DNA of 12,006 nt, taken from a bacterium (GTDB lineage: Bacteria; SM23-31; JAUVVT01). Positions 1-11,371 of this stretch are shown one piece after another. The position numbers and the translations under genes were made by a program. Under the pieces are notes generated by a model. That model was not told where the DNA came from. It worked only from the letters and a program-made list of their open reading frames with translations, and did no database searches. Every line of letters starts with the position of its first letter. The stretch's first letter is position 1. The stretch spans positions 1-12,006 of the forward strand of contig JAUWXV010000107.1 in NCBI GenBank assembly GCA_030616165.1, written 5' to 3'.

Positions 1-533
1 CAAATTCTGATACTCTTTGTTGCTTTGGTTGTGGCGTCAGCAAATGAAATTAAATACAGATATGCAATGTGTGTCGGCGAGCGTTTCAACAGTCCCGCAA
101 TAATCTCTCATGCTCAACATGCAAGGATTGATGTTTTTTCATCTTTAGCAGTTGCAGTAGCAGTTATTGGTGCGCGGGCAGGTCTTCATTTTGTTGACCC
201 ATTAATTGCAATTTTGAAATCGTGCATATTGTAAAAGCAAGCACGGAAATGCTGATAAGCAGTATTAAAAGTCTGATGGATGTATCAATATCTGATGAAA
301 AAATTTCTTCTATCAAAAATGTTGTTTCAAAAGTGAATGGAGTCATAGATATAAATTATATAAAAGCGAGACAGATAGGTCGGCATGTATGGATAGACCT
401 TTCTGTTTTCATTGACCCTGACATAACAATATTCGAGGGGAAAAGTATATCGGAAAATGTGAGAAACTATTTAACAAATAAGTTGCAAAATGTTGGAAAT
501 GTTCAGGTCTCTTTTATTGCAAGTAGAACATAA
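1..533 (+). pseudogene. mamM: MamM-like cation diffusion facilitator, 5'-partial and frameshifted
   Basis: Open from the first base of the window, so the N-terminal half lies upstream. It aligns end to end with the next gene (both CDF transporters): an NSPAII stretch, a histidine/aspartate pair four residues apart in the TM5 region (H from 118, D from 130), a DPLIAI segment, then a cytoplasmic domain with the IGRHVWIDL motif. The HxxxD pattern and this motif look closer to MamM than MamB, which is a by-eye judgement. The reading frame breaks: frame 1 stops at 232-234, while the rest of the protein continues in the -1 frame to a stop at 531-533. Adding one T to the TTTT run at 212-215 restores an alignment with the paralogue without gaps at the break. 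The site is not a canonical -1 slippery heptamer, so a mutation or an assembly error is likelier than programmed frameshifting. Role if intact: iron import into magnetosome vesicles as partner of MamB. Confidence 0.75.
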
Positions 534-552
534 TTCTTTAAAAAGATAAAAT

Positions 553-1524
553 ATGAATTTACAGAACAAAACAAATTCACATATTCCTGAAAAGTGTATT
601 AAGTGTGCTCAAAGGGTGCCGTGGGTATGTCTTTTTTCGAATTTTACTTTAGCCGTATTTAAAATGACTATTGGTTACCTTTCCGGCAGCAAGGGTCTTT
701 TTGCAGATGGTGTTCATTCGTTCAGTGATGTAATCGCAACAACGGGTGTTATAATAAGTTTGAAGATTGCCGGAAAACCTGAAGATAAAAAATATCCTTA
801 CGGAAGGGGAAAGGTCGAGTTTATAAGCTGTGTATTTGTTTACGCTGTACTACTTGGTGTTTCAATAATAATACTTCATGGTGCAGTTAAACACATTCTT
901 GCAGCAAAACAAACAGCACCGCATCTGATTTCATTGTTCTCTGCATTTGTATCGGTTATTGCAAATGTTATGCTTTACCGACTGGGGATGTGTGCTGGAA
1001 AACAGTTAAACAGCCCGGCAATAATTGCAAACGCAAATGAAAACAAGGCTGATATGTTCTCTTCGATTGCTGTTATTTTTGGGATTATAGGTTCAAATTT
1101 TGGATATTACTTTTGTGACCCTTTAGCAGCAATAATAGTAGGATTAATAATTTTTAAAACTGCTTCCACGCTCGGCTGGAAAGCTATTGAAGCACTTATA
1201 GATACATCCGTTCCTCCAGAAAAACTTAAAATATTAAGTAAGATTATAAGAAATGTAAAAGGAGTTAATATGGTAAATTACATAAAGACAAGACAGGTCG
1301 GGAATCAGTACTGGCTGGATGTGGAAGTGCAGGTATCACCAGAATTATCGGTGAGGGAAGGTGATGAAATTTCTAAAAATGTTAGAACAGGATTAATGAT
1401 GATTTCGAGACGCATTAAAGATGTTGTTGTAACCCTGTCCTGTGAAAAACCGAGAGTTAAAAAAAGTTTATTTAATAAACCAAAAATAAAATCTTTCTTT
1501 AATCGAGAAGTATTGATTAAATAG
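553..1524 (+). CDS. mamB: MamB-like cation diffusion facilitator (magnetosome iron transporter)
   Basis: A 323-residue CDF protein, full length for the family. It has a CxxC near the N-terminus (C15, C18) as in MamB and MamM, a TM2 segment with H55 and D59 at the metal-site positions, a KYPYGRGKVEF loop after TM2, an NSPAIIANA segment followed by E163 and D167 in TM5, and a C-terminal cytoplasmic domain from about residue 205 with a RQVGNQYWLDVEV strand. MamB of Magnetospirillum shows the same CxxC and NSPAIIANA blocks, which is why I prefer MamB over a generic FieF/CzcD pump. Known role of MamB: iron transport into, and formation of, the magnetosome vesicle with MamM. It starts 19 nt after the MamM-like gene. 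The leader is only A-rich, without a clear Shine-Dalgarno. The C-terminus carries a basic tail of about 25 residues (from about 299) absent from the upstream paralogue. Confidence 0.82.
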   Translation: MNLQNKTNSHIPEKCIKCAQRVPWVCLFSNFTLAVFKMTIGYLSGSKGLFADGVHSFSDVIATTGVIISLKIAGKPEDKKYPYGRGKVEFISCVFVYAVLLGVSIIILHGAVKHILAAKQTAPHLISLFSAFVSVIANVMLYRLGMCAGKQLNSPAIIANANENKADMFSSIAVIFGIIGSNFGYYFCDPLAAIIVGLIIFKTASTLGWKAIEALIDTSVPPEKLKILSKIIRNVKGVNMVNYIKTRQVGNQYWLDVEVQVSPELSVREGDEISKNVRTGLMMISRRIKDVVVTLSCEKPRVKKSLFNKPKIKSFFNREVLIK

Positions 1525-1537
1525 AAGAGAGGTAGTT

Positions 1538-2734
1538 ATGTACAAAAAAATCATTCTAAGTAATAAAGTAAAAACCATTCCTGTCCAGGTTCAAAAAAAT
1601 GAAGTGAAATATAAAATTATTCAGGACCTTATTAATAAGAATAATATAGGTTATAAAGTAAAAACAGTTCCTGTTCAGGTTCAAAATAATGGAATGAAAC
1701 ATAAAATTATTCAGGACCTTATTAATAAGAATAAGATAAGTAATAAAGTAAAAACAGTTCCTGTTCAGGGTAAAAATAATAAAACGAAACAGAAAATTAA
1801 TCCGGACCTTATCAAGAAGAATAAGAAAAGTAATAAAGTAAAAACAGTTCCTGTTCAGGGTAAAAATAATAAAACGAAACAGAAAATTAGTCAGGAATTT
1901 ATAAATAATAATAAGATAGGAGGATGTGAAATGAAGTTATGTATAATTAAAAATTGCAGGGAAGAAGCCTATAAAGAGAATTTCTGTGCCAAGCACTACG
2001 TGGAGATTATGAAAAAAAGTGTTCAAGAATTGAATAAGGAAAATCTCTCTGTCGAAAGTTCCAATAAAGGGAATAATGGAAATGGTTTATACGGGTTAGA
2101 TGGTGCAAGTACAAAGGTACAGTTTTTTGTGCATTCACTTCTTGTTTATGTCGGAAAGTTCACAGATATTGGGATTTCTGCTTTTGATAATTTGTTTAAT
2201 CTCGGCAGGAGTGAAGTTGCGGACATTTACAGACAAATAGGCACTAAGTACATTAGCAAGGAGAAATATAAAAAGGCAATCCCGATTCTGAAGAAAGTTG
2301 TTGCTTTAAATCCGGGTGATTCTGAGTCAATTTACAATCTTGGGTCTGCTTATTTAACTGAGGGCTCGTTAGATAAGGCGATGGATTGTTATAAAAAAGC
2401 AATCCAACTTAATCCTGATAATCAGAATTATTATTATGAAATCAGTATTGCTTATGAGCAGAAGAAACTTATAGATGAGGCAATTGATTCTTTAAAGAAA
2501 GCAGTTAAGATTGACTCTGGTAATCCAGAGGTTCATTATCGGCTCGGTATTGTTTATGATAATAAAAAAGCATTTGAAAATGCGGTCTCTTCTTACAAGA
2601 AAGCTATTGAACTTAATCCAAGACAATCAAATTATTATCACAGTCTTGGATTTGCCTATGAGAGTTTGAACTTACGTAAGGAAGCAGTCGATTGTTTTAA
2701 AAAAGCTATTGCCCTTGAACAGTCAGTCGTATAA
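1538..2734 (+). CDS. mamA: MamA-like TPR protein with N-terminal 30-residue repeats and a Cys/His cluster
   Basis: From the first ATG the product is 398 residues. Residues 9-128 are four 30-residue, lysine/asparagine-rich repeats with core KVKTVPVQ; residues 135-153 hold a C-x4-C-x9-C-x2-H cluster that could bind a metal; residues 155-228 are a linker; about 229-398 are five tetratricopeptide repeats (e.g. the YxxLGxAY and KKAIxLNP signatures). MamA of known magnetotactic bacteria is about 217 residues of five TPRs and forms a protein coat on the magnetosome surface, so the TPR part matches well and the N-terminal half is extra. Position between mamB-like and mamQ-like genes supports the name. 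Two starts are credible: 1538 (GAGAGG at 1527-1532) gives the long form; in-frame ATG 1931 (AGGAGG at 1918-1923, 7-nt spacing) gives 267 residues starting just before the Cys/His cluster. Both may be used. No signal peptide or membrane segment is seen. Confidence 0.75.
   Translation: MYKKIILSNKVKTIPVQVQKNEVKYKIIQDLINKNNIGYKVKTVPVQVQNNGMKHKIIQDLINKNKISNKVKTVPVQGKNNKTKQKINPDLIKKNKKSNKVKTVPVQGKNNKTKQKISQEFINNNKIGGCEMKLCIIKNCREEAYKENFCAKHYVEIMKKSVQELNKENLSVESSNKGNNGNGLYGLDGASTKVQFFVHSLLVYVGKFTDIGISAFDNLFNLGRSEVADIYRQIGTKYISKEKYKKAIPILKKVVALNPGDSESIYNLGSAYLTEGSLDKAMDCYKKAIQLNPDNQNYYYEISIAYEQKKLIDEAIDSLKKAVKIDSGNPEVHYRLGIVYDNKKAFENAVSSYKKAIELNPRQSNYYHSLGFAYESLNLRKEAVDCFKKAIALEQSVV
1562..1921 (+). 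repeat. Four tandem 90-bp in-frame repeats
   Basis: Units at 1562-1651, 1652-1741, 1742-1831 and 1832-1921, all exactly 90 bp and encoding 30 residues each with consensus NKVKTVPVQ at the front and DLINKNKI at the back. Units 3 and 4 share about 62 identical bases in a row, so they duplicated recently; units 1 and 2 are more diverged, with synonymous or conservative changes (ACC/ACA, GTC/GTT, I/V), as expected if the repeat is translated and kept under selection. The array is very basic (many Lys) and lacks acidic runs. Confidence 0.95.
1918..1933 (+). promoter_or_regulatory. Strong internal ribosome binding site and alternative mamA start
   Basis: AGGAGG at 1918-1923, 7-nt spacer, then ATG at 1931-1933 in frame with the long ORF. 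It is the best Shine-Dalgarno in the magnetosome block and sits exactly at the end of the repeat array. Translation here yields a 267-residue Cys/His-plus-TPR protein without the repeats. Confidence 0.7.
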
Positions 2735-2865
2735 TATCACAATCATACTTTTGTGAAAGGGATTTCCTTATTTAAGGTAAATTAATAAGAGAGTTTAATT
2801 GGAGAAATCTCCTGATTAAACAATATTTAAGTTTTTATTTTTAAATTATAAAGATAGGGATAATA
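2735..2865 (+). other. 131-bp gap with two inverted repeats, possible operator or attenuator
   Basis: The longest intergenic gap within the operon. It holds TCACAA (2737-2742) and TTGTGA (2751-2756) as an inverted repeat with an 8-bp spacer, starting 3 bp after the mamA stop, and a second dyad at 2796-2818 whose core is GGAG-AAAT-CTCC with flanking TAAT/ATTA, followed by AT-rich DNA. Either could be a weak terminator, an operator or an mRNA processing site. I found no convincing -35/-10 pair here. An AGGG at 2856-2859 may serve as the ribosome binding site of the next gene. Confidence 0.4.
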
Positions 2866-3567
2866 ATGAATGATAGTGTTGGCACATCAATTGTTAAAAA
2901 ATTATATAAAGAAATTTATAAAACAAATAAGAATAATACGCATCGTCGTAGAATTAATACAAGAGATATAATTGTTACAGGAATGATTGTTATTGTCGTG
3001 TTGTTTTTTGCTTATGGCGGTATCTATTATTATAATGTATTTATTAACCTGAGATATGATATAGATGCAAACTTGGCTCAGATTGATACCCAGCTTCAAA
3101 AAAGGAAAAATTTGATTATCAATCTTGGGAAGACCGTAATTGATTATGCTGAGCATGAAAGAGAAATATTTACCTACCTTGCAGAATTAAGAGCAGCGTT
3201 TAATGGTAAAAATACTGAAGAAATCTTAAAATCTGACAATAATGTGGTAACTAATGAAGCGGACTTGGCTCTCAAAAACGAAGATGAAATAAATTGGGAA
3301 GATACACTATCAAAACTGATGGCAATTGCTGAGAGATATCCTGATTTGAGATTGAGTGAAAATTTTCAGAGCTATATGAGTGCAATCTTGGAATTTGAAA
3401 ATAAAATTGCAGAATTAAGAATGATATATAATGATTCTGTTAATGAATATTCAACTATCAGAGACCAATTCCCAGGGTACGTTTTTGCAACAATATTCAG
3501 GTCCCAAAAATACGAATTCTTTAAAGTTAACCAGGATGAAAATAATTTTGTTGAGGTCGAATATTAA
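2866..3567 (+). CDS. mamQ: MamQ-like LemA-family membrane protein
   Basis: A 233-residue protein with a cytoplasmic basic N-terminus, one membrane helix at about 35-55, and then the LemA signature: YYYN at 54-57, LR at 62-63, an AQIDTQLQKRKNLI stretch at 71-84, and TVIDYAEHE at 90-98. The rest is helical and should form the antiparallel helix bundle typical of LemA. The C-terminus ends in a conserved-looking FPGYVFATIFRSQKYEFF stretch before an acidic tail. MamQ is the LemA-like protein of magnetosome islands and is needed for magnetosome membrane formation in Magnetospirillum; its biochemical role is not known. A general LemA protein is the alternative, but the neighbours favour MamQ. It lies 12 nt before the PDZ-permease gene. 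Confidence 0.8.
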   Translation: MNDSVGTSIVKKLYKEIYKTNKNNTHRRRINTRDIIVTGMIVIVVLFFAYGGIYYYNVFINLRYDIDANLAQIDTQLQKRKNLIINLGKTVIDYAEHEREIFTYLAELRAAFNGKNTEEILKSDNNVVTNEADLALKNEDEINWEDTLSKLMAIAERYPDLRLSENFQSYMSAILEFENKIAELRMIYNDSVNEYSTIRDQFPGYVFATIFRSQKYEFFKVNQDENNFVEVEY

Positions 3568-3579
3568 TATTAAGAAATA

Positions 3580-5460
3580 ATGTTTGAATATTATAAAATT
3601 GTAAATTTCTTTAAAAAAAAGATTTTAACTTTTAAAGATACGGCAAGTGTTTTAAAAGATGATGAAAATTCTATTCAACGCTCGTTAATTTACTTAATAT
3701 TTATTTCTATAATACTTGCAATCTGCATTTTTGCAATGTTTTATAATTCAGAATCGGAACACGGAAATAAAGACCTTGCATGGTTTGGAGCTCTTGCGGC
3801 TTCGGTTGATAATGTTTCAATAGTCAACTCTAATCGTCAGGCTGAAAAAGGTGCATTAATAACTTCAATAACTCCGAATTCTCCTGCTCAAAAATCTGGC
3901 TTGATGGTTGGGGATATTATAGTTAATGTTGCCGGGGAAAAAATTAAAGATGCAGGCTCCTTAAAAAAGGAAATTATGGATAAAAAACCTAATGATAGAT
4001 TTAATATGACAGTTATCAGAAATGATCGTTGGGAGGTTTTATCAGTAAGGTATGGGAATTATAATCCAAACCTTCAAGCAGGTAATCTTTATGTGCGTGG
4101 GAATTACACAAGAGTGATTGATAATAAGAATATTGCTGTAGTTATAATAATTTTTATTATAGTTTTTTTAGCAATATTTCTTAATTTGACTGACAGGGCA
4201 GTTATAGTCGGGGCTGGTGCGCTTGCTGCTATTATTGTGGGTACTTTTCTTGGATTTTATAATCAGAGTGAAGCGTTTTCTTCAATAAATCTCAGTACAC
4301 TCTCACTACTTTTGGGGATGGGATTAATTTCACTTGTTCTTCAGGAAGCAGGTTTGTTTGATTACCTTGCAAAGCGCCTTATAATTGCTACAGAAGGTGA
4401 TGGATGGAAATTGATGCTCTTTTTTTGTTTGATAACTTATGTTTTTTCATGTTTTGTGAACAACCTCACAACAATTCTGATAATCGCCCCGATTACGCTG
4501 AACCTTGCGAATGGATTAAAACTTGACCCAAAACCATTTATAATAAGTGAAATAATTTCTTCAAATATCGGTGGTGCAAGTTCAATGATTGGTGATTTTC
4601 CAAATATGCTGATTTCTTCAGAGACCGGCCTTCTCTTTCATGATTTTATATTTTATATGATGCCTGTATGTCTAATTCTGTTATTTGTTTTATTGGTTTA
4701 CATTAAAGCAGCAAAAGGAAGCTTTTTTGCTCAAAGAAGTAACCGTTTGAACCATCCGGAAGTAACTGAATTATTTGAAAGAATTAATTCTGAAATTCCC
4801 AAAGCTATAAAAAATAAAACTGCCGTAATCAGGGGACTAATTTTATTGGGAATTGTTATTATAGCATTTATTTTATCAGATAAATTAGGACTGCCGCCTG
4901 CGGTTATTGCTTTAACAGGTGGATTTACTATACTATTAATAAGTGGTGTTGATGCAACATCGGTTATAAAAAAATTTGGATTTAAAGATATAATATTCTT
5001 TTCAGGGATGTTTGTTCTTGTCGGCAGTGTAGATGCATCTGGTTTTCTTGATTATTTATCTGGAATATTAACTGGATTATCAGGGGATAATATACTTGTT
5101 CAGTGTATAATATTGATGTGGCTGGCTGGGATATTGACATCATTTTTAAATGCTGGTCCTGCAACGATGCTGTTTATTCCTGTGGTATTTAATTTCGAGA
5201 TGATTTCCCCGCATAATATATATTGGTGGTCTTTATCACTTGGGGTTCTCGCCGGGTCTTCGTCAATGATAACAGGTGCAACTGCCGGCCAGGTTGCTTC
5301 AACAGTAATAGAAGATTATTTAATAGCAAATAAAAAAAATACGCAATTGAAATTATCCGATTTTCTGACCTTCAAAGAATATGCTGAAATCGGGATACCA
5401 ATTATGATTATATTTCTTTTAATCTCAAGTGCTTATATCACATTTTTATATTTTATTTAA
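3580..5460 (+). CDS. PDZ domain fused to ArsB/CitT-type permease (MamN-like)
   Basis: A 626-residue protein with three parts. Residues 1-34 are a basic cytoplasmic start; 35-55 a membrane helix; about 67-157 a PDZ domain (GALITSITPNSPAQKSGL at 91-108, then GDIIVNVAGEKI at 111-122) that would face the periplasm or vesicle lumen; about 182-626 a multi-helix permease of ArsB/NhaD/SLC13 type. Family marks are FVNNLT at 292-297, SNIGGASSMIGDFPN at 328-342 and the pseudo-repeat LNAGPATM at 523-530. The permease part, about 445 residues, fits MamN (437 in Magnetospirillum), a predicted ion antiporter of magnetosomes. PDZ domains in magnetosome islands normally belong to MamE, MamP or related proteins; this one has neither the trypsin-like domain nor CxxCH magnetochrome motifs. 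The fusion is intact within one frame, so it is not a sequencing joint between two ORFs. No strong ribosome binding site; coupling to the upstream gene (12 nt) is likely. Confidence 0.75.
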   Translation: MFEYYKIVNFFKKKILTFKDTASVLKDDENSIQRSLIYLIFISIILAICIFAMFYNSESEHGNKDLAWFGALAASVDNVSIVNSNRQAEKGALITSITPNSPAQKSGLMVGDIIVNVAGEKIKDAGSLKKEIMDKKPNDRFNMTVIRNDRWEVLSVRYGNYNPNLQAGNLYVRGNYTRVIDNKNIAVVIIIFIIVFLAIFLNLTDRAVIVGAGALAAIIVGTFLGFYNQSEAFSSINLSTLSLLLGMGLISLVLQEAGLFDYLAKRLIIATEGDGWKLMLFFCLITYVFSCFVNNLTTILIIAPITLNLANGLKLDPKPFIISEIISSNIGGASSMIGDFPNMLISSETGLLFHDFIFYMMPVCLILLFVLLVYIKAAKGSFFAQRSNRLNHPEVTELFERINSEIPKAIKNKTAVIRGLILLGIVIIAFILSDKLGLPPAVIALTGGFTILLISGVDATSVIKKFGFKDIIFFSGMFVLVGSVDASGFLDYLSGILTGLSGDNILVQCIILMWLAGILTSFLNAGPATMLFIPVVFNFEMISPHNIYWWSLSLGVLAGSSSMITGATAGQVASTVIEDYLIANKKNTQLKLSDFLTFKEYAEIGIPIMIIFLLISSAYITFLYFI

Positions 5461-5465
5461 GTCTT

Positions 5466-6413
5466 ATGAATATTGGAAAACAAGTCGTTATAAAAAAGAG
5501 ATGGGTTGAATTAGGTTCTGCAATATTTATTGCAGTGATAGTATTATTAGCTCTTTTCAGCGGGCAGAGGGATACATTTGAATCGGCAAAATTTTATAAT
5601 CACTTTGATGATGTTATTATTGGAGACATTACATTTTCTGATATTTTGTTTTTAATTATACTTGGTTTTATCTCGGGTGTAGTTGGTGGAATGCTTGGCA
5701 TGGGCGGAGGTGTGTTGAAAGTTTCTAATCTTCACCTTTTATTCGGATATGAAATGGTTTTTGCAAGAGCGGTTTCACTATTAAGCTACGTGGTTATATC
5801 CATATCTGCTTTTTTCCGTTATAGGAGATATAATTTAATACTCTGGAATGTGGTAAAAATGCTTATCCCATCAGCAATTCTGGGAGCATTAATCGGTGTA
5901 ATACTTGGTAATTATGTTAACGAAAGACTGATTGAGGTTTTTCTTGGTCTTTATGCACTCTTTACAGGCATTATTGTATTAAACCAGATATGGACTGAAC
6001 CATTTGAAAAAGAAATCGAATCACTCCCAAAAGAGGCAACAAATGAAACTGCAGTATCCGGTATTGGAATTGGGATGGGGTTTATAAGCAGTATAATAGG
6101 TATAAGTGGTGGTGTTTTATCTACACCGCTCCAGCAGTTAATATTAAAGTTACCGTTGAAAAATTCTATTGCAAATTCTGTTACCACTGCCATTTTTTGT
6201 TCATTTACTGCATCAGTATTAATTATCTGGACAGGTTTACATAGTGGATATTTTTCTTTTAGTAATGTTTTGCTGACAACATTATGCTTGACACCCGGAA
6301 ATATTATGGGAGGGCAGGCTGGAAGTTATCTGACGAAAAGGTTATCCGTAAATTATGTAAGGATTACGTTTGCAATTATGGCTTTTATAATAGGCTTTAA
6401 AATTATTATTTGA
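5466..6413 (+). CDS. TauE/SafE-family permease (MamO C-terminal-like)
   Basis: 315 residues with an N-terminal helix (about 16-32), a polar stretch, and about eight further membrane helices. The two TauE/SafE half-repeat signatures are visible: GGMLGMGGGVLKV at about 74-86 and a GISGGVLSTP block at about 213-222. In Magnetospirillum this permease fold is the C-terminal half of MamO, behind a degenerate protease domain; here it stands alone. It starts 5 nt after the PDZ-permease stop, so translation is probably coupled. The transported substrate is unknown; TauE/SafE proteins elsewhere export sulfite or organosulfonates. Sure of the family, less sure of the magnetosome equivalence. Confidence 0.72.
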   Translation: MNIGKQVVIKKRWVELGSAIFIAVIVLLALFSGQRDTFESAKFYNHFDDVIIGDITFSDILFLIILGFISGVVGGMLGMGGGVLKVSNLHLLFGYEMVFARAVSLLSYVVISISAFFRYRRYNLILWNVVKMLIPSAILGALIGVILGNYVNERLIEVFLGLYALFTGIIVLNQIWTEPFEKEIESLPKEATNETAVSGIGIGMGFISSIIGISGGVLSTPLQQLILKLPLKNSIANSVTTAIFCSFTASVLIIWTGLHSGYFSFSNVLLTTLCLTPGNIMGGQAGSYLTKRLSVNYVRITFAIMAFIIGFKIII

Positions 6414-6443
6414 TATTTCATATTATTAATAAATAACATACTT

Positions 6444-6680
6444 TTGGTTAATAAAATGTTAATTTCAATATTTGCATTAATTGGATTGTTTTTCGTAATA
6501 ATTAAAGTTTATGATAAAGGAAGGAAGGATGGTATTATGGAGGCAGTCAAATATTTTACCAGAGAAATGAAAAAAAGAGAGATTAATGCAGAAGTTATTA
6601 TTGATGGTAAAGATATTGATGAATTAGAGAAATCTAAAAAATTATTTAAGATTCCATTTTTAAGACGGGAGAAAAAATGA
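6444..6680 (+). CDS. Small single-pass membrane protein, unknown
   Basis: Two starts are possible: TTG 6444 (78 residues) or ATG 6456 (74 residues), the latter preferred because the protein then begins at its membrane helix (MLISIFALIGLFFVIIKVY). Neither has a clear Shine-Dalgarno. After the helix comes a charged cytoplasmic domain with DGKDIDELEK and a basic end (FLRREKK). MamI (about 70 residues) and MamL are small magnetosome membrane proteins, but both have two helices, so I do not assign either. Its stop overlaps the next start by 4 nt (ATGA), so the two are almost certainly co-translated. Confidence 0.6.
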   Translation: MVNKMLISIFALIGLFFVIIKVYDKGRKDGIMEAVKYFTREMKKREINAEVIIDGKDIDELEKSKKLFKIPFLRREKK

Positions 6681-7006
6681 TGGAAAAAAAATCTAAAAAA
6701 AGAAACAAAGATAATTCAGATTTTACAAAAAAAACTCAACAAAAAAGGACAGGAGCAAAAGAAGAATACGAAAATAAATATGATTTCATTGAAGATATTG
6801 AGGATAAAATACGGAATGGAATTAAAAGATTACACAAAATTAATCTGAAGAAGCTGGACGTGGGTGGACTTTTTGTAAAGAGCGAACAGTTGCGCAGGAC
6901 TATAAGTGTGATTGACAGACGTGCTTCAAGTTGTGCAAATGACATTTCTTCAAAAGTAGTTGATTTCATTAATAAATCTATCAAAAATTATAAGAAAAAA
7001 AGATAA
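6677..7006 (+). CDS. Small basic soluble protein, unknown
   Basis: 109 residues from ATG 6677, or 108 from the adjacent ATG 6680; GGGAG at 6667-6671 serves either. No membrane helix or signal peptide. The first 30 residues are Lys/Gln-rich and probably disordered; residues 33-109 look helical with alternating charges and could form a coiled coil; the end is again basic (NYKKKR). It overlaps the preceding membrane-protein gene by 4 nt and ends 49 nt before feoB. I recognise no family. The pairing suggests a membrane anchor plus a soluble partner acting with the magnetosome or iron-uptake genes, which is inference from context only. Confidence 0.6.
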   Translation: MMEKKSKKRNKDNSDFTKKTQQKRTGAKEEYENKYDFIEDIEDKIRNGIKRLHKINLKKLDVGGLFVKSEQLRRTISVIDRRASSCANDISSKVVDFINKSIKNYKKKR

Positions 7007-7055
7007 ATAGCGATATTCTTAAATCTAAGTTTAAGACCTTTATGAAGAGAGAAAT

Positions 7056-9023
7056 ATGAGTGTAGAAGAAATAGAAGAATTAAAAGTTAATTCAAACAGC
7101 TCTAATCGTGTCAAAAAAATTGCTATTGTCGGTCTTCCTAATTCCGGAAAGAGCCAGATTTTTAATAATCTAACTGGTGAATATAACATAGTCGCAAATT
7201 ATCCTCTAACTACCATCGAACCAAAAAGAGCACATTGTCAAATAAGAAACCACCCTTGTGAAGTTATTGATACTCCTGGTCTTCATTGTTTGTATATTCA
7301 TTCTGAGGAAGAACTCATCGTAAGGGACATGATTTTCTCAGAAAAACCGGATGTAATCATTCAGTGCATTGATACTAATCGGCTGAAACAATCCCTTGTC
7401 CTTACCTCAGATTTATTGGAATTGGGGATACCAATTGTGATTTCCCTTAATGCAATAGATGAAACAATGAGAAAAGGTATATACATTGATTCAAGTGGAC
7501 TATCTCGCTTTTTGGGTGTTCCGGTTGTTGAGTTAATGGCTCTGCATAAGAAAGGTACAGAAGAGTTAAAGGATGCTATATATAATGCAAGGAATGGTAA
7601 GAAGAGTGTTCGGTATGGTGATATTATAGAGAAATGGATATCAGATGTAGCATCTAAACTGCCGGAAGATATTAATTATAAGCGGAAGGTATCTGTTTTG
7701 ATGCTGCTTCACGACCCGTTTTTAGCAGGCAACTTAAAAAAGGTATATGGTGAGGAAAAGACTACACAGATAAGAAAAGAAGTAAATAGGATAAGGTCGG
7801 GATTTAAAGGGAATCTTGCTCGTGTCATAAACAATAGGCGGAACAAGTGGGTGGATAATGTTACCGAGAAGGTAATAAAAAAGCAGAAGATAACGCGGGG
7901 AGAATTTTCTCAGGTTTTTGCTCATTTGAGTCGGCATCCTGTATTCGGACTCCCGATATTAATGACATTTATTTTCATAATGTATTTTCTTGTTGTGGAT
8001 GTTGCAAATGTAACCTCAAGTTGGATGGATGGAACATTATGGATTCCGGTCCAGCATCAAATAGATAACCTTATATCCAGTAGATTCTGGAGCGATTTTT
8101 TAATAGGTGATTATGGTATCCTGTCACTTGGTCTGGCTAATGCTGTTATAACAATTTTACCGATATTGTCGGTCTTTTTCATTTTTTTCAGCATTCTTGA
8201 GGACATTGGATATATACCTAATGTAAGTGTCTTGACAAAAAGAATTTTCGAAAAGATTGGATTAAGTGGTTCTGCTATTATGCCTTTGGTTCTCAGTTTT
8301 GGGTGTAAAACTATGGCTACTTTAACGACAAAATCCATTCGGTCTAAAAAGGAGAGATTTATAACTATATGTTTAATTGCATTTGGTATCCCCTGTGCTG
8401 CACAATTAGGAATCAATATTAGTATACTTGGCAGAATGGGTATAAGAGCATTTGCAATAGCTTTTTCTGTGCTCGCATTTATTGATATATTGGTGGGATT
8501 TGTTTTAAACAAGTTCTTGAAAGAGGAAAAGAAGAGTTATTTTATACAGGAACTGCCGGCAATGCGTTTGCCCAACCTGAAAGCAGTGCTTATTAAAACT
8601 TATTACAGACTTTATTGGTTTATCAAGGAAGCTGTGCCGGTATTTATATTCGCAGCGTCTGCATTATTTATAATGGATAAGGTTGGAATACTTGATGGAA
8701 TGAAAAATATATTGAGCCCTGTAATTATAGGATTTTTGGGATTTCCCACGGAAATGGTCGATGTTCTTATAATATGTATGGTAAGGCATGAAGCCGCTGC
8801 AGCAATGATTATAAACCTTGTGGAGAAAGACCTTCTTAATTATGTTCAGTGTATAGTTGCAGTAATTATTATTATGATGATTCCTTGTTTTGCAAACATT
8901 GGAGCCATGGTCAAGGAACTCGGATTAAAAAGGGCTGTCAATACAGTAGTTATTATTTATATAGGAGCGTTCTTATTGGCTGGGAGCCTGAATTGGATAC
9001 TTGGTAGTTTGTTTATCCTATAA
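7056..9023 (+). CDS. feoB: FeoB ferrous iron transporter
   Basis: A 655-residue GTPase-permease, somewhat short for FeoB (usually about 700-770). The N-terminal G domain has G1 GLPNSGKS at 26-33, switch I with NYPLTTIE at 48-55, G3 DTPG at 72-75 and G4 NAID at 132-135. A helical linker follows to about 290, then the membrane part with both Gate regions: one around GCKTMAT at 416-422, the other around VRHEAAA at 576-582, then IPCFANIGA at 609-617. Typical FeoB has GCNVPA in the first Gate and a DLPG G3, so this is a diverged member. FeoB imports Fe2+ across the inner membrane, and feoB genes recur in magnetosome clusters. No separate feoA or feoC gene is present; an FeoA domain sits in the next gene, 14 nt downstream. 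Ribosome binding site GAAGAGAG just upstream. Confidence 0.88.
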   Translation: MSVEEIEELKVNSNSSNRVKKIAIVGLPNSGKSQIFNNLTGEYNIVANYPLTTIEPKRAHCQIRNHPCEVIDTPGLHCLYIHSEEELIVRDMIFSEKPDVIIQCIDTNRLKQSLVLTSDLLELGIPIVISLNAIDETMRKGIYIDSSGLSRFLGVPVVELMALHKKGTEELKDAIYNARNGKKSVRYGDIIEKWISDVASKLPEDINYKRKVSVLMLLHDPFLAGNLKKVYGEEKTTQIRKEVNRIRSGFKGNLARVINNRRNKWVDNVTEKVIKKQKITRGEFSQVFAHLSRHPVFGLPILMTFIFIMYFLVVDVANVTSSWMDGTLWIPVQHQIDNLISSRFWSDFLIGDYGILSLGLANAVITILPILSVFFIFFSILEDIGYIPNVSVLTKRIFEKIGLSGSAIMPLVLSFGCKTMATLTTKSIRSKKERFITICLIAFGIPCAAQLGINISILGRMGIRAFAIAFSVLAFIDILVGFVLNKFLKEEKKSYFIQELPAMRLPNLKAVLIKTYYRLYWFIKEAVPVFIFAASALFIMDKVGILDGMKNILSPVIIGFLGFPTEMVDVLIICMVRHEAAAAMIINLVEKDLLNYVQCIVAVIIIMMIPCFANIGAMVKELGLKRAVNTVVIIYIGAFLLAGSLNWILGSLFIL

Positions 9024-9037
9024 TAAGGAGAAGATGT

Positions 9038-9793
9038 ATGAATAATCATATAAGAGAAAAGGAAGAATATCTGGAGAGATTGTGGAATATGAAAAACAAA
9101 GAGAAGGATTCGATGGATGTGCTGAAGAACGCCATGGGCGGGAGTTTTGACACCGAGATAATTGATGAATTATTGTCTGAAGATTTAGTTGCATTAACAA
9201 AAAATAATAATAAAATCGTCCTTACAAGAGAAGGTGAGGATTATGCCCGGCGAATAATCCGCGCACACAGAATTGCCGAGAGATTGATTTACGACGTCCT
9301 GGGAGGTGAGTTTGAATCAGGCGCCTGTGAGTTTGAACACATAGTTATCCCGGACCTTGTTGATAGTATTTGTATTTTGCTCGGACACCCCAGAGAATGC
9401 CCTCACGGAATGCCGATACCGGAAGGGGAATGCTGCGTCCGCTCTGCCAAGACAGCCCGCAATTCGGTTATCCACTTGACGGAGTTAGAGGTAGGACAGT
9501 CCGCACGCATCGCCTATGTCAGTTGCAAAGATGATCTCCAGCTTCATAAGATAGACGGTCTTCAGATAAGACCAGGAGTATTTGTTAAACTCCATCAGGT
9601 ATACCCTTCTTATGTGATTGAGTGTGAAGGGTCTAACATAGCGATGGATAAGGAAATAGTATCGAACATATTCGTGTGGAAATTCTCACAGGATTTTAAC
9701 TCGACCGAAAGAGATGCCCGTGGGATAAAAATGCCAAATCATAAAGGGTGGAGTAGAGGTTTTAGATTTATTCGCAGAGGAAGGTGTAATTAA
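9038..9793 (+). CDS. DtxR/MntR-type metalloregulator with FeoA-like domain
   Basis: 251 residues. An N-terminal winged-helix region (about 8-75, ending KIVLTREGEDYAR) is followed by the DtxR dimerisation and metal-binding domain: H77 and E81 in AHRIAERL, C97/E100/H101 in ACEFEHI, and HPRECPHGMPIP at 117-128. These match the metal ligands of DtxR (H79, E83, C102, E105, H106). Residues about 142-215 form an FeoA/SH3-like domain (LTELEVGQSARI, then IRPGVFVKL), common at the C-terminus of DtxR proteins. The last 35 residues are basic and atypical. An excellent ribosome binding site (AAGGAG 9025-9030, 7-nt spacing) follows feoB directly. DtxR proteins repress iron uptake genes when Fe2+ is plentiful; here the likely targets are feoB and the upstream block. 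GC in the middle of the gene is about 48-50 percent over two counted 60-bp lines, well above its neighbours, hinting at a separate origin. Confidence 0.85.
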   Translation: MNNHIREKEEYLERLWNMKNKEKDSMDVLKNAMGGSFDTEIIDELLSEDLVALTKNNNKIVLTREGEDYARRIIRAHRIAERLIYDVLGGEFESGACEFEHIVIPDLVDSICILLGHPRECPHGMPIPEGECCVRSAKTARNSVIHLTELEVGQSARIAYVSCKDDLQLHKIDGLQIRPGVFVKLHQVYPSYVIECEGSNIAMDKEIVSNIFVWKFSQDFNSTERDARGIKMPNHKGWSRGFRFIRRGRCN

Positions 9794-9837
9794 TTATCAT
9801 CTGTCAACTAATAGCCAAAAGCAATCAGGTCAGTTAT

Positions 9838-10599
9838 ATGAACATCGAACTTATCATTTTAATTTTTGTTCTTGCATTTTTGTGCGAATTCATTGATTCT
9901 TCAATTGGTATGGGATATGGCACAATTCTTTCCCCGTTGCTCATTATAATAGGGATAGACCCTTTAGTGGTTATTCCATCGATTCTCGTATCCCAATTTC
10001 TGTCGGGAATCAGTGCCGGTTTATTTCACAATAAATACGAAAATTTAAATTTAAAATCCTGGTCAAAAGATTTAAAAATAATTCTGACTATAAGTATTTT
10101 TGGAACATTGGCTTCTGTAACTGCTGTACTTGTCGCAATTACCATCCCTGTTGCAGTCCTTAAAATATACATTGGATTATTAATATTCATTATTGGTATA
10201 GTCCTCGTTTCTAATGCCCGTTTCGTATTTTCATGGAAAAAAATAGTAGTATTAGCCTTATTAAGTTCTTTTAATAAAGGAATATCGGGGGGAGGATTTG
10301 GACCTGTTATCACTGGTGGTCAAATAATTTCCGGCAATGGTTATAAAAATTCAATCGCCTGTACAACATTTTGTGAAGTACAAATCTGTTTCACTGCATT
10401 TGTTTTATATTTAATTATGAAAGGAATTCCTGATTCCTATGTAATTTTTCCCTTGATTATAGGTGCTGTTGCTTCAACTCCCTTTGGACCTAAAGTAACG
10501 GGTAAGATTAATCCAGAGAAACTAAAACTTATAACAGCAATCATAATAATTACAATGGGTATTTTTACAATTACAAAAACCATCTATAATTATTATTAA
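9838..10599 (+). CDS. TauE/SafE-family permease, second copy
   Basis: 253 residues, nearly all hydrophobic, about eight helices. The two half-repeat signatures are FIDSSIGMGYGT at 18-29 and FNKGISGGGFGP at 145-156. It differs clearly from the TauE protein at 5466-6413 in length, in lacking the N-terminal helix extension, and in motif residues (an acidic FID before the first glycine motif), so it is not a recent duplicate. TauE/SafE proteins export sulfite, sulfonates or sulfur compounds; the substrate here is unknown. It lies 44 nt after the regulator, in the same direction, with AGG at about 9827-9829 as a weak ribosome site. It may be the last gene of the operon or a neighbour with its own promoter. 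Confidence 0.8.
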   Translation: MNIELIILIFVLAFLCEFIDSSIGMGYGTILSPLLIIIGIDPLVVIPSILVSQFLSGISAGLFHNKYENLNLKSWSKDLKIILTISIFGTLASVTAVLVAITIPVAVLKIYIGLLIFIIGIVLVSNARFVFSWKKIVVLALLSSFNKGISGGGFGPVITGGQIISGNGYKNSIACTTFCEVQICFTAFVLYLIMKGIPDSYVIFPLIIGAVASTPFGPKVTGKINPEKLKLITAIIIITMGIFTITKTIYNYY

Positions 10600-10662
10600 A
10601 AATTTTCCACTTTCCATTTTCCTACTTTCCCTTTTTTCCCATCCTTTTAATAAAAATGGTGG

Positions 10663-10682
10663 GATAGACATTCTTGTCTGTC
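10663..10682. terminator. Hairpin after the TauE gene, possible terminator
   Basis: GATAGACA and TGTCTGTC pair as an 8-bp stem (one G-T wobble) around a TTCT loop, 64 bp after the last stop of the operon. It is followed by ATAATTTAATT, not a real T-run, so termination is plausible but weak. It may instead be a dispersed hairpin repeat. Confidence 0.4.
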
Positions 10683-10769
10683 ATAATTTAATTATCTTTG
10701 TATGACTGTGTAATCCGTGAAAACCTGCCCTTTGCCTCTGCGTTTAATTCTCCAAATTCGTAAATCGTC

Positions 10770-10819
10770 ATTCGTAAATCGTAAATCCATCTTGTCATTC
10801 CCGCCCCCTCCTTGTCATT
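10770..10819. repeat. 50-bp direct repeat, copy 1
   Basis: ATTCGTAAATCGTAAATCC followed by CTTGTCATTCCCGCCCCC and CTCCTTGTCATT. It matches 11067-11116 at 49 of 50 positions. The 19-bp front part alone occurs a third time at 10891-10909, and a partial copy (ATTCGTAAATCGTC) precedes this one at 10756-10769. Confidence 0.9.
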
Positions 10820-10832
10820 ACGACTTTCTTCA

Positions 10833-10862
10833 TTGTCATTTCGACCGAAGCGGAGAAATCTC
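10833..10862. repeat. Dispersed-type repeat TTGTCATTTCGACCGAAGCG
   Basis: A 30-bp block beginning TTGTCATTTCGACC and ending GGAGAAATCTC. I recall this kind of block recurring between genes in several bacterial groups; only one copy is in this window, though its GGAGAAATCTC end also appears inside the dyad at 2801-2811. Confidence 0.45.
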
Positions 10863-10989
10863 AACTTTAATTTTCCACTTTCCATTTTTCATTCGTAAAT
10901 CGTAAATCCTAATTTCCTCTCTGTGCCCTCTGCGGTTCAATCCCCATTCCCAAATCGCCCTCATTTGTCATTTAGTCATTTGGATTTGA

Positions 10990-11017
10990 TTTGACATTTG
11001 AGCTTTGACATTTGAGC
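10990..11017. repeat. Tandem 14-bp duplication
   Basis: TTTGACATTTGAGC occurs twice head to tail (10990-11003, 11004-11017), perfect. No function can be inferred. Confidence 0.9.
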
Positions 11018-11066
11018 TTAATATTCCTGCTTCTATCTCTCTGTGCCCTCTGTGGTTCCATTCTTC

Positions 11067-11116
11067 ATTCGTAAATCGTAAATCCTTCTTGTCATTCCCG
11101 CCCCCTCCTTGTCATT
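11067..11116. repeat. 50-bp direct repeat, copy 2
   Basis: Same unit as 10770-10819 with one difference (A/T after AAATCC). Here it runs directly into the CCCCGAGTACTCGGGG palindrome. Confidence 0.9.
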
Positions 11117-11117
11117 C

Positions 11118-11133
11118 CCCCGAGTACTCGGGG
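11118..11133. repeat. Perfect 16-bp palindrome, REP-like
   Basis: CCCCGAGTACTCGGGG, flanked by TTGTCATTC on the left and AAATCC on the right. The GTCATTCCC...GGGAAATCC frame is typical of REP-like hairpin repeats. It could act as a hairpin in transcripts of either strand. Confidence 0.75.
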
Positions 11134-11371
11134 AAATCCACACAAAATATATCCTCCTGCCCTTTGCGTCTGCGGTTAATTTAATCAACCTGTTTAATTT
11201 TTTAAAAAAAATAAAAAAAATCCTTTGACTTTCCTCAAATAAAACATTAAATTTAAACAATTATAATTACGTTCGGTTAAACCAATACTATACATAAAAC
11301 TTCTCCGCTCATCATCCTGTTCATCTGATTCATGTATTTCTTAAAAACAAGCAATTTTTTATAATTCTCGT

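Follow-up and report, generated by a model that had tools for sequence, protein, structure and literature searches.

A probable magnetosome gene cluster of Omnitrophota-like type, split over two contigs of one draft genome

Described clusters and the gene content of the locus

Magnetosomes are magnetic-crystal compartments that serve as the compass of some bacteria. The clusters most like the locus analysed here are those of two Omnitrophota MAGs, nDJH2bin18 (JADFXX010000001; L050) and nDJH6bin18 (JADFYF010000004; L051), where, as here, mamE is accompanied by a PDZ gene, a NifX-magnetochrome gene, mamP, a small two-helix gene (mamL), mamM, mamB, mamA, mamQ and a fused PDZ-mamN gene, after which feoB follows. 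Both L050 and the present locus carry a TauE gene between PDZ-mamN and feoB. In Desulfovibrio magneticus RS-1, magnetochrome and NifX/NifB domains are combined in one protein, FmpB, and a stand-alone TauE protein is required for magnetite formation (PMC4287615), and a TauE-type protein corresponding to the C-terminal part of MamO (MamO-Cter) has been reported for Nitrospirota, along with man genes (PMC8353452). The Hydrogenedentota clusters L052 and L054 encode related MamP, MamE, MamA and MamB/MamM proteins, but their gene order differs, and no MamN was found within the cluster stretches examined. Gene order in Nitrospirota and Nitrospinota clusters is also unlike that found here, and in the Nitrospinota cluster L067 a FeoB-DtxR pair follows mamB and MamO retains its protease part.

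The stretch of DNA analysed (the window; 12,006 bases) is the whole of contig C135, part of a 3.74 Mb draft genome in 343 contigs that is 90% complete. Genes on the plus strand, separated by short gaps, span positions 1-10,599, and open reading frames and profile searches confirmed what the earlier note had described at 1-9793, namely consecutive same-strand mam-like genes running into feoB and a DtxR-FeoA gene. The contig opens with the C-terminal part of mamM (1-533, plus strand, as are all following genes), a CDF iron transporter. It is followed by mamB (553-1524), likewise coding for a CDF iron transporter, which scored 263 bits against the MamB model NF033616 compared to 210 bits for the generic CDF model (NCBIfam). 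The product of mamA (1538-2734), a TPR scaffold, matched NF040959 with 170 bits over residues 193-394, and MamA structures were among its PDB matches. The first ~130 residues of this reading frame form four 30-residue tandem repeats, encoded by four in-frame 90-bp tandem repeats (1557-1918) whose differences between copies are mostly nonsynonymous. Since an internal ATG with an AGGAGG site is present at 1931, these repeats may lie outside MamA, and judging from the sequence 1931 is possibly the real start. Next, mamQ (2866-3567) codes for a LemA-type membrane protein, for which NF040966 (111 bits) was the sole NCBIfam match.

The PDZ-mamN fusion (3580-5460) codes for an N-terminal membrane helix, a PDZ domain at about residues 70-157 and a CitMHS-type transporter at 187-622. 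Its MamN profile score was about 372-373 bits, the next best among 289 other genomes being 221 bits. A single-protein MamN scan of named genomes found nothing, and a literature search for a described PDZ-MamN fusion returned no Omnitrophota paper. An AlphaFold model of the fusion had a mean pLDDT of 37 and was set aside. The following gene (5466-6413) had been read earlier as MamO(TauE), and the TauE half of that assignment holds (PF01925, 142 bits; MamO model NF040961, 186 bits, with the best stretch at model positions 355-497), but profile searches found no protease domain, and the gene is better called TauE or MamO-Cter than MamO. Its counterpart in L050 barely matches the MamO model (29.5 bits). 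Two small reading frames lie between TauE and feoB, one for a single-helix protein with a TTG start (6444-6680) and one for a basic protein (6677-7006), neither with a family match. The ferrous iron importer gene feoB (7056-9023; TIGR00437, 351 bits, above cut-off) codes for a protein 51% identical to the FeoB part at the end of L050. It is adjoined by a gene for a DtxR-type regulator with a FeoA domain (9038-9793; PF02742, DtxR C-terminal, and PF04023, FeoA), whereas the L050 and L051 sequences end inside feoB; relatives of the regulator occur in the clusters L067 of Nitrospinota, where it follows feoB, and L077 of Magnetococcales. A second TauE-family gene (9838-10599; PF01925, 86 bits), for which no relative was found in 29 reference magnetosome loci, probably marks the edge of the cluster. 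Dispersed short direct repeats occupy 10600-11190, and the GC skew of the window becomes negative from about 10.5 kb. An Rfam search gave no matches, and scans for promoters and terminators gave no more hits than in shuffled sequences.

The earlier note had proposed inspecting the upstream contig for mamE, mamI, mamP and mamK. Upstream genes were indeed found, though on a separate contig, C181 (locus L013), the window being a complete contig. In order, C181 carries two-component genes, a gene for a NifX-like membrane protein (L013 3882-4445), mamE (4683-6032) and on to mamP (8537-10087), mamL (10113-10364) and the start of mamM (10348-10752), with which the contig ends. MamE has an intact serine protease (HtrA) triad and no haem or magnetochrome motif, is 41% identical to Omnitrophota MamE, and, at 227 bits, outscores every other HtrA of the genome on the MamE model, the runner-up reaching 151. 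Between mamE and mamP lie genes for a PDZ/zinc-ribbon protein (6139-6867), an FmpB-like NifX-magnetochrome protein (6895-7938; PF18509) and a 64-residue two-helix protein (8063-8257), the latter being all that was found by way of mamI and a candidate for it. MamP contains three PDZ domains and three CxxCH motifs, with the magnetochrome domain PF18509. The assignment of mamL draws on similarity and on its position directly before mamM, which is also seen in Omnitrophota, Magnetococcales and Nitrospinota loci. Immediately before the cluster, on the same strand, L013 194-3607 codes for a two-component system, made up of a PAS histidine kinase and an NtrC-type regulator, and for one further protein with a receiver domain; these are possible regulators of the cluster and are present here unlike in L050 and L051.

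The architecture had earlier been described as unusual and the gene complement as atypical. The unusual architecture is present, but it is largely common to the Omnitrophota clusters; the complement is in fact an architecture shared with them, PDZ-MamN included, and the genes follow one another in nearly identical order. Differences are seen in MamP, which has three CxxCH motifs here and two in Omnitrophota, and in the sequences themselves, the Mam proteins being about 34-44% identical between the two. In the NifX-magnetochrome protein, the magnetochrome part is C-terminal, in contrast to RS-1 FmpB, where it is N-terminal and where a PDZ domain is reportedly also present (PMC4287615).

The mamM junction and the composition of the contigs

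Judged from their sequences, C135 and C181 are very probably the two parts of one split magnetosome gene cluster of Omnitrophota-like type. The sole N-terminal part of MamM in the whole genome is on C181 and the sole C-terminal part is on C135, so that the contigs are most simply taken as adjacent. The overlap between their ends, 32 nt long, has an identity of 81% and, as this is not 100%, strain variation or an error at the junction is likely. The reading frame of mamM breaks around positions 205-235 of the window, within 235 bases of the contig end, and may have the same cause as the mismatch at the junction.

The frame break, together with the lack of MamK inside the recovered part of the cluster (C181 and C135), could instead mean that the cluster is decaying or silent and that magnetosomes are no longer made. 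A precedent is provided by a phototroph that is not magnetotactic and in which silent magnetosome clusters are known (PMC9938234). Such a state is nevertheless considered unlikely, since every other gene is intact, the MamE triad and the MamP haem motifs are kept, and the location of the break near a contig end, with the 81% overlap, suggests assembly or strain variation.

That C135 and C181 are contaminants from an Omnitrophota-like magnetotactic organism would agree with their closest relatives being Omnitrophota and with the cluster occurring in no other genome of the phylum. This is regarded as very improbable, however, since their GC contents (33.6% and 35.5%, respectively) and tetranucleotide distances (0.112 and 0.127) are inside the range of the genome, in contrast to distances of 0.33-0.43 for the Omnitrophota clusters, and since their Mam proteins resemble those of Omnitrophota only at the identities given above. 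The low GC and the placement of the lineage outside Proteobacteria had both been predicted correctly. The collection contained six genomes of the source phylum, which is little known, one other being in the same family and the remainder in the same class; magnetochrome or MamN genes were found in the source genome only (1/6), and no magnetochrome domains were found in the other five.

Phylogeny, motifs and MamK-family actins

The reference set consisted of 29 magnetosome loci found via a MamP alignment that included the sequence of the MamP structure PDB 4jj0, and generic outgroup proteins were taken from up to 290 genomes. Trees of the CDF and LemA proteins against such outgroups had been proposed as a check on the cluster, and they placed the proteins with their magnetosome counterparts. 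A MamQ tree was built because BLAST score alone fails to separate MamQ from LemA; MamQ grouped with Omnitrophota MamQ (100/96), with all 30 LemA rows across a branch (100/99). MamB grouped with Omnitrophota MamB (100/100) within the MamB clade (98/94). MamM, for which two frames and two contig pieces were joined as in the assembly, fell within the MamM clade (100/95), in a starred clade with Omnitrophota and Hydrogenedentota, and 30 generic CDFs were separated from MamB/MamM by one branch (91/90). MamN was placed in the magnetosome clade (100), closest to Omnitrophota (93) and apart from CitMHS/ArsB. For all four proteins, the nearest relatives were those of the two Omnitrophota MAGs. The NAxENxxD motif in TM5 of MamB and the CxxxD/HxxxD motifs of MamM follow the Omnitrophota sequences, not the generic CDFs. 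These trees and the upstream mamE, magnetochrome-bearing mamP and mamL support the identification as a magnetosome gene cluster. A generic operon for iron or metal homeostasis, made of ordinary CDF, TPR, LemA, CitMHS and TauE proteins and playing no part in magnetosomes, would be conceivable in that each family is common by itself and that MamQ and MamA scores alone overlap generic proteins, but it is refuted, to our minds almost beyond doubt, by the MamB/MamM, MamQ and MamN trees, the adjacent mamE, mamP and magnetochrome genes, and the synteny with known clusters. No Mam match on C135 or C181 reached the curated equivalog cut-offs of NCBIfam; the tested Mam proteins of the Omnitrophota cluster were likewise below them, which makes the cut-offs look overly strict for deep lineages.

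A MamK-family actin was found on a third contig, C145, with 383 bits (cut-off 400), between a small coiled-coil gene and ParB-/ParA-like genes. The composition of C145 (GC, tetranucleotide) is also inside the range of the genome, and a flanking gene is 77% identical to that of the family-mate G002. In the tree, the actin grouped with those of class-mates (100/100), which are without the cluster. One to three MamK-family actins are present in each of the class-mates G003, G004 and G005, in which no MamN, magnetochrome or Mam-type MamB was found, and a further six of 280 genomes searched (L211-L216) contain such actins (380-432 bits), the 11-20 kb around them being free of magnetosome genes. As these actins occur without a cluster, the MamK actin was rejected as proof of one, but the C145 protein may serve in magnetosome positioning.

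In G003, G004 and G005 (L189 3126-7215, L191 843-4481 and L193 3267-7632, respectively), a small coiled-coil gene and feoB come after a MamK-family actin gene; G003 and G004 additionally have a rubrerythrin/ferritin-like gene next, and no mam genes lie close by. This neighbourhood possibly reflects an iron-related use of the MamK-like actin, or a remnant. Near the MamK-family gene, L080 3783-5033 codes for a fusion protein that combines a ParA-type ATPase with the receiver domain of a response regulator; its ATPase part shares 50% identity with a ParA encoded between mamE and mamK in Nitrospinota L067 (1660-2427).

Proposed working, origin and significance

By homology with known systems, the cluster would be expressed and would function in magnetosome formation. 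MamL, MamQ and MamB would shape and load a membrane vesicle, into which MamB and MamM would bring Fe(II) supplied by FeoB with the DtxR-FeoA regulator. The MamN and TauE transporters would handle protons or anions, with the PDZ domain of MamN probably in the lumen, and MamE, with its intact triad and lack of haem, would process lumenal proteins. MamP and the FmpB-like NifX-magnetochrome protein could oxidise part of the iron via c-type haems, giving a mixed-valence crystal, and MamA would coat the vesicle. The crystal would most likely be magnetite, which is the better guess because nDJH2bin18 and nDJH6bin18 are not among the genomes that Lin et al. (2020) named as having greigite-type genes (PMC7602337).

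The published list of magnetotactic bacteria comprises 16 phyla (PMC12805115). The fullest reading of the data is offered tentatively, as a possibility that we would not yet bet on: a magnetosome former in a phylum absent from that list, with an anciently diverged cluster of Omnitrophota type and perhaps a class-native MamK-family actin, beside ParA/ParB-like genes, that positions the magnetosomes. This would possibly be the first record of the magnetosome trait in the source phylum. MreB of the source genome is 80% identical to that of a class-mate and 63% to that of Omnitrophota. The kinship between this cluster and those of Omnitrophota is old, and transfer and inheritance both stand as explanations.

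Magnetosome clusters outside Proteobacteria have been sampled sparsely; the locus contributes a deep lineage to them and extends the layout of PDZ-MamN, NifX-magnetochrome protein and stand-alone TauE beyond Omnitrophota. Through class-mates that have a MamK-family actin beside feoB but no such cluster, the origin of MamK can be put to the test. Should magnetotaxis prove new for the phylum, the finding would be relevant to the question of an ancestral trait versus one passed between phyla.
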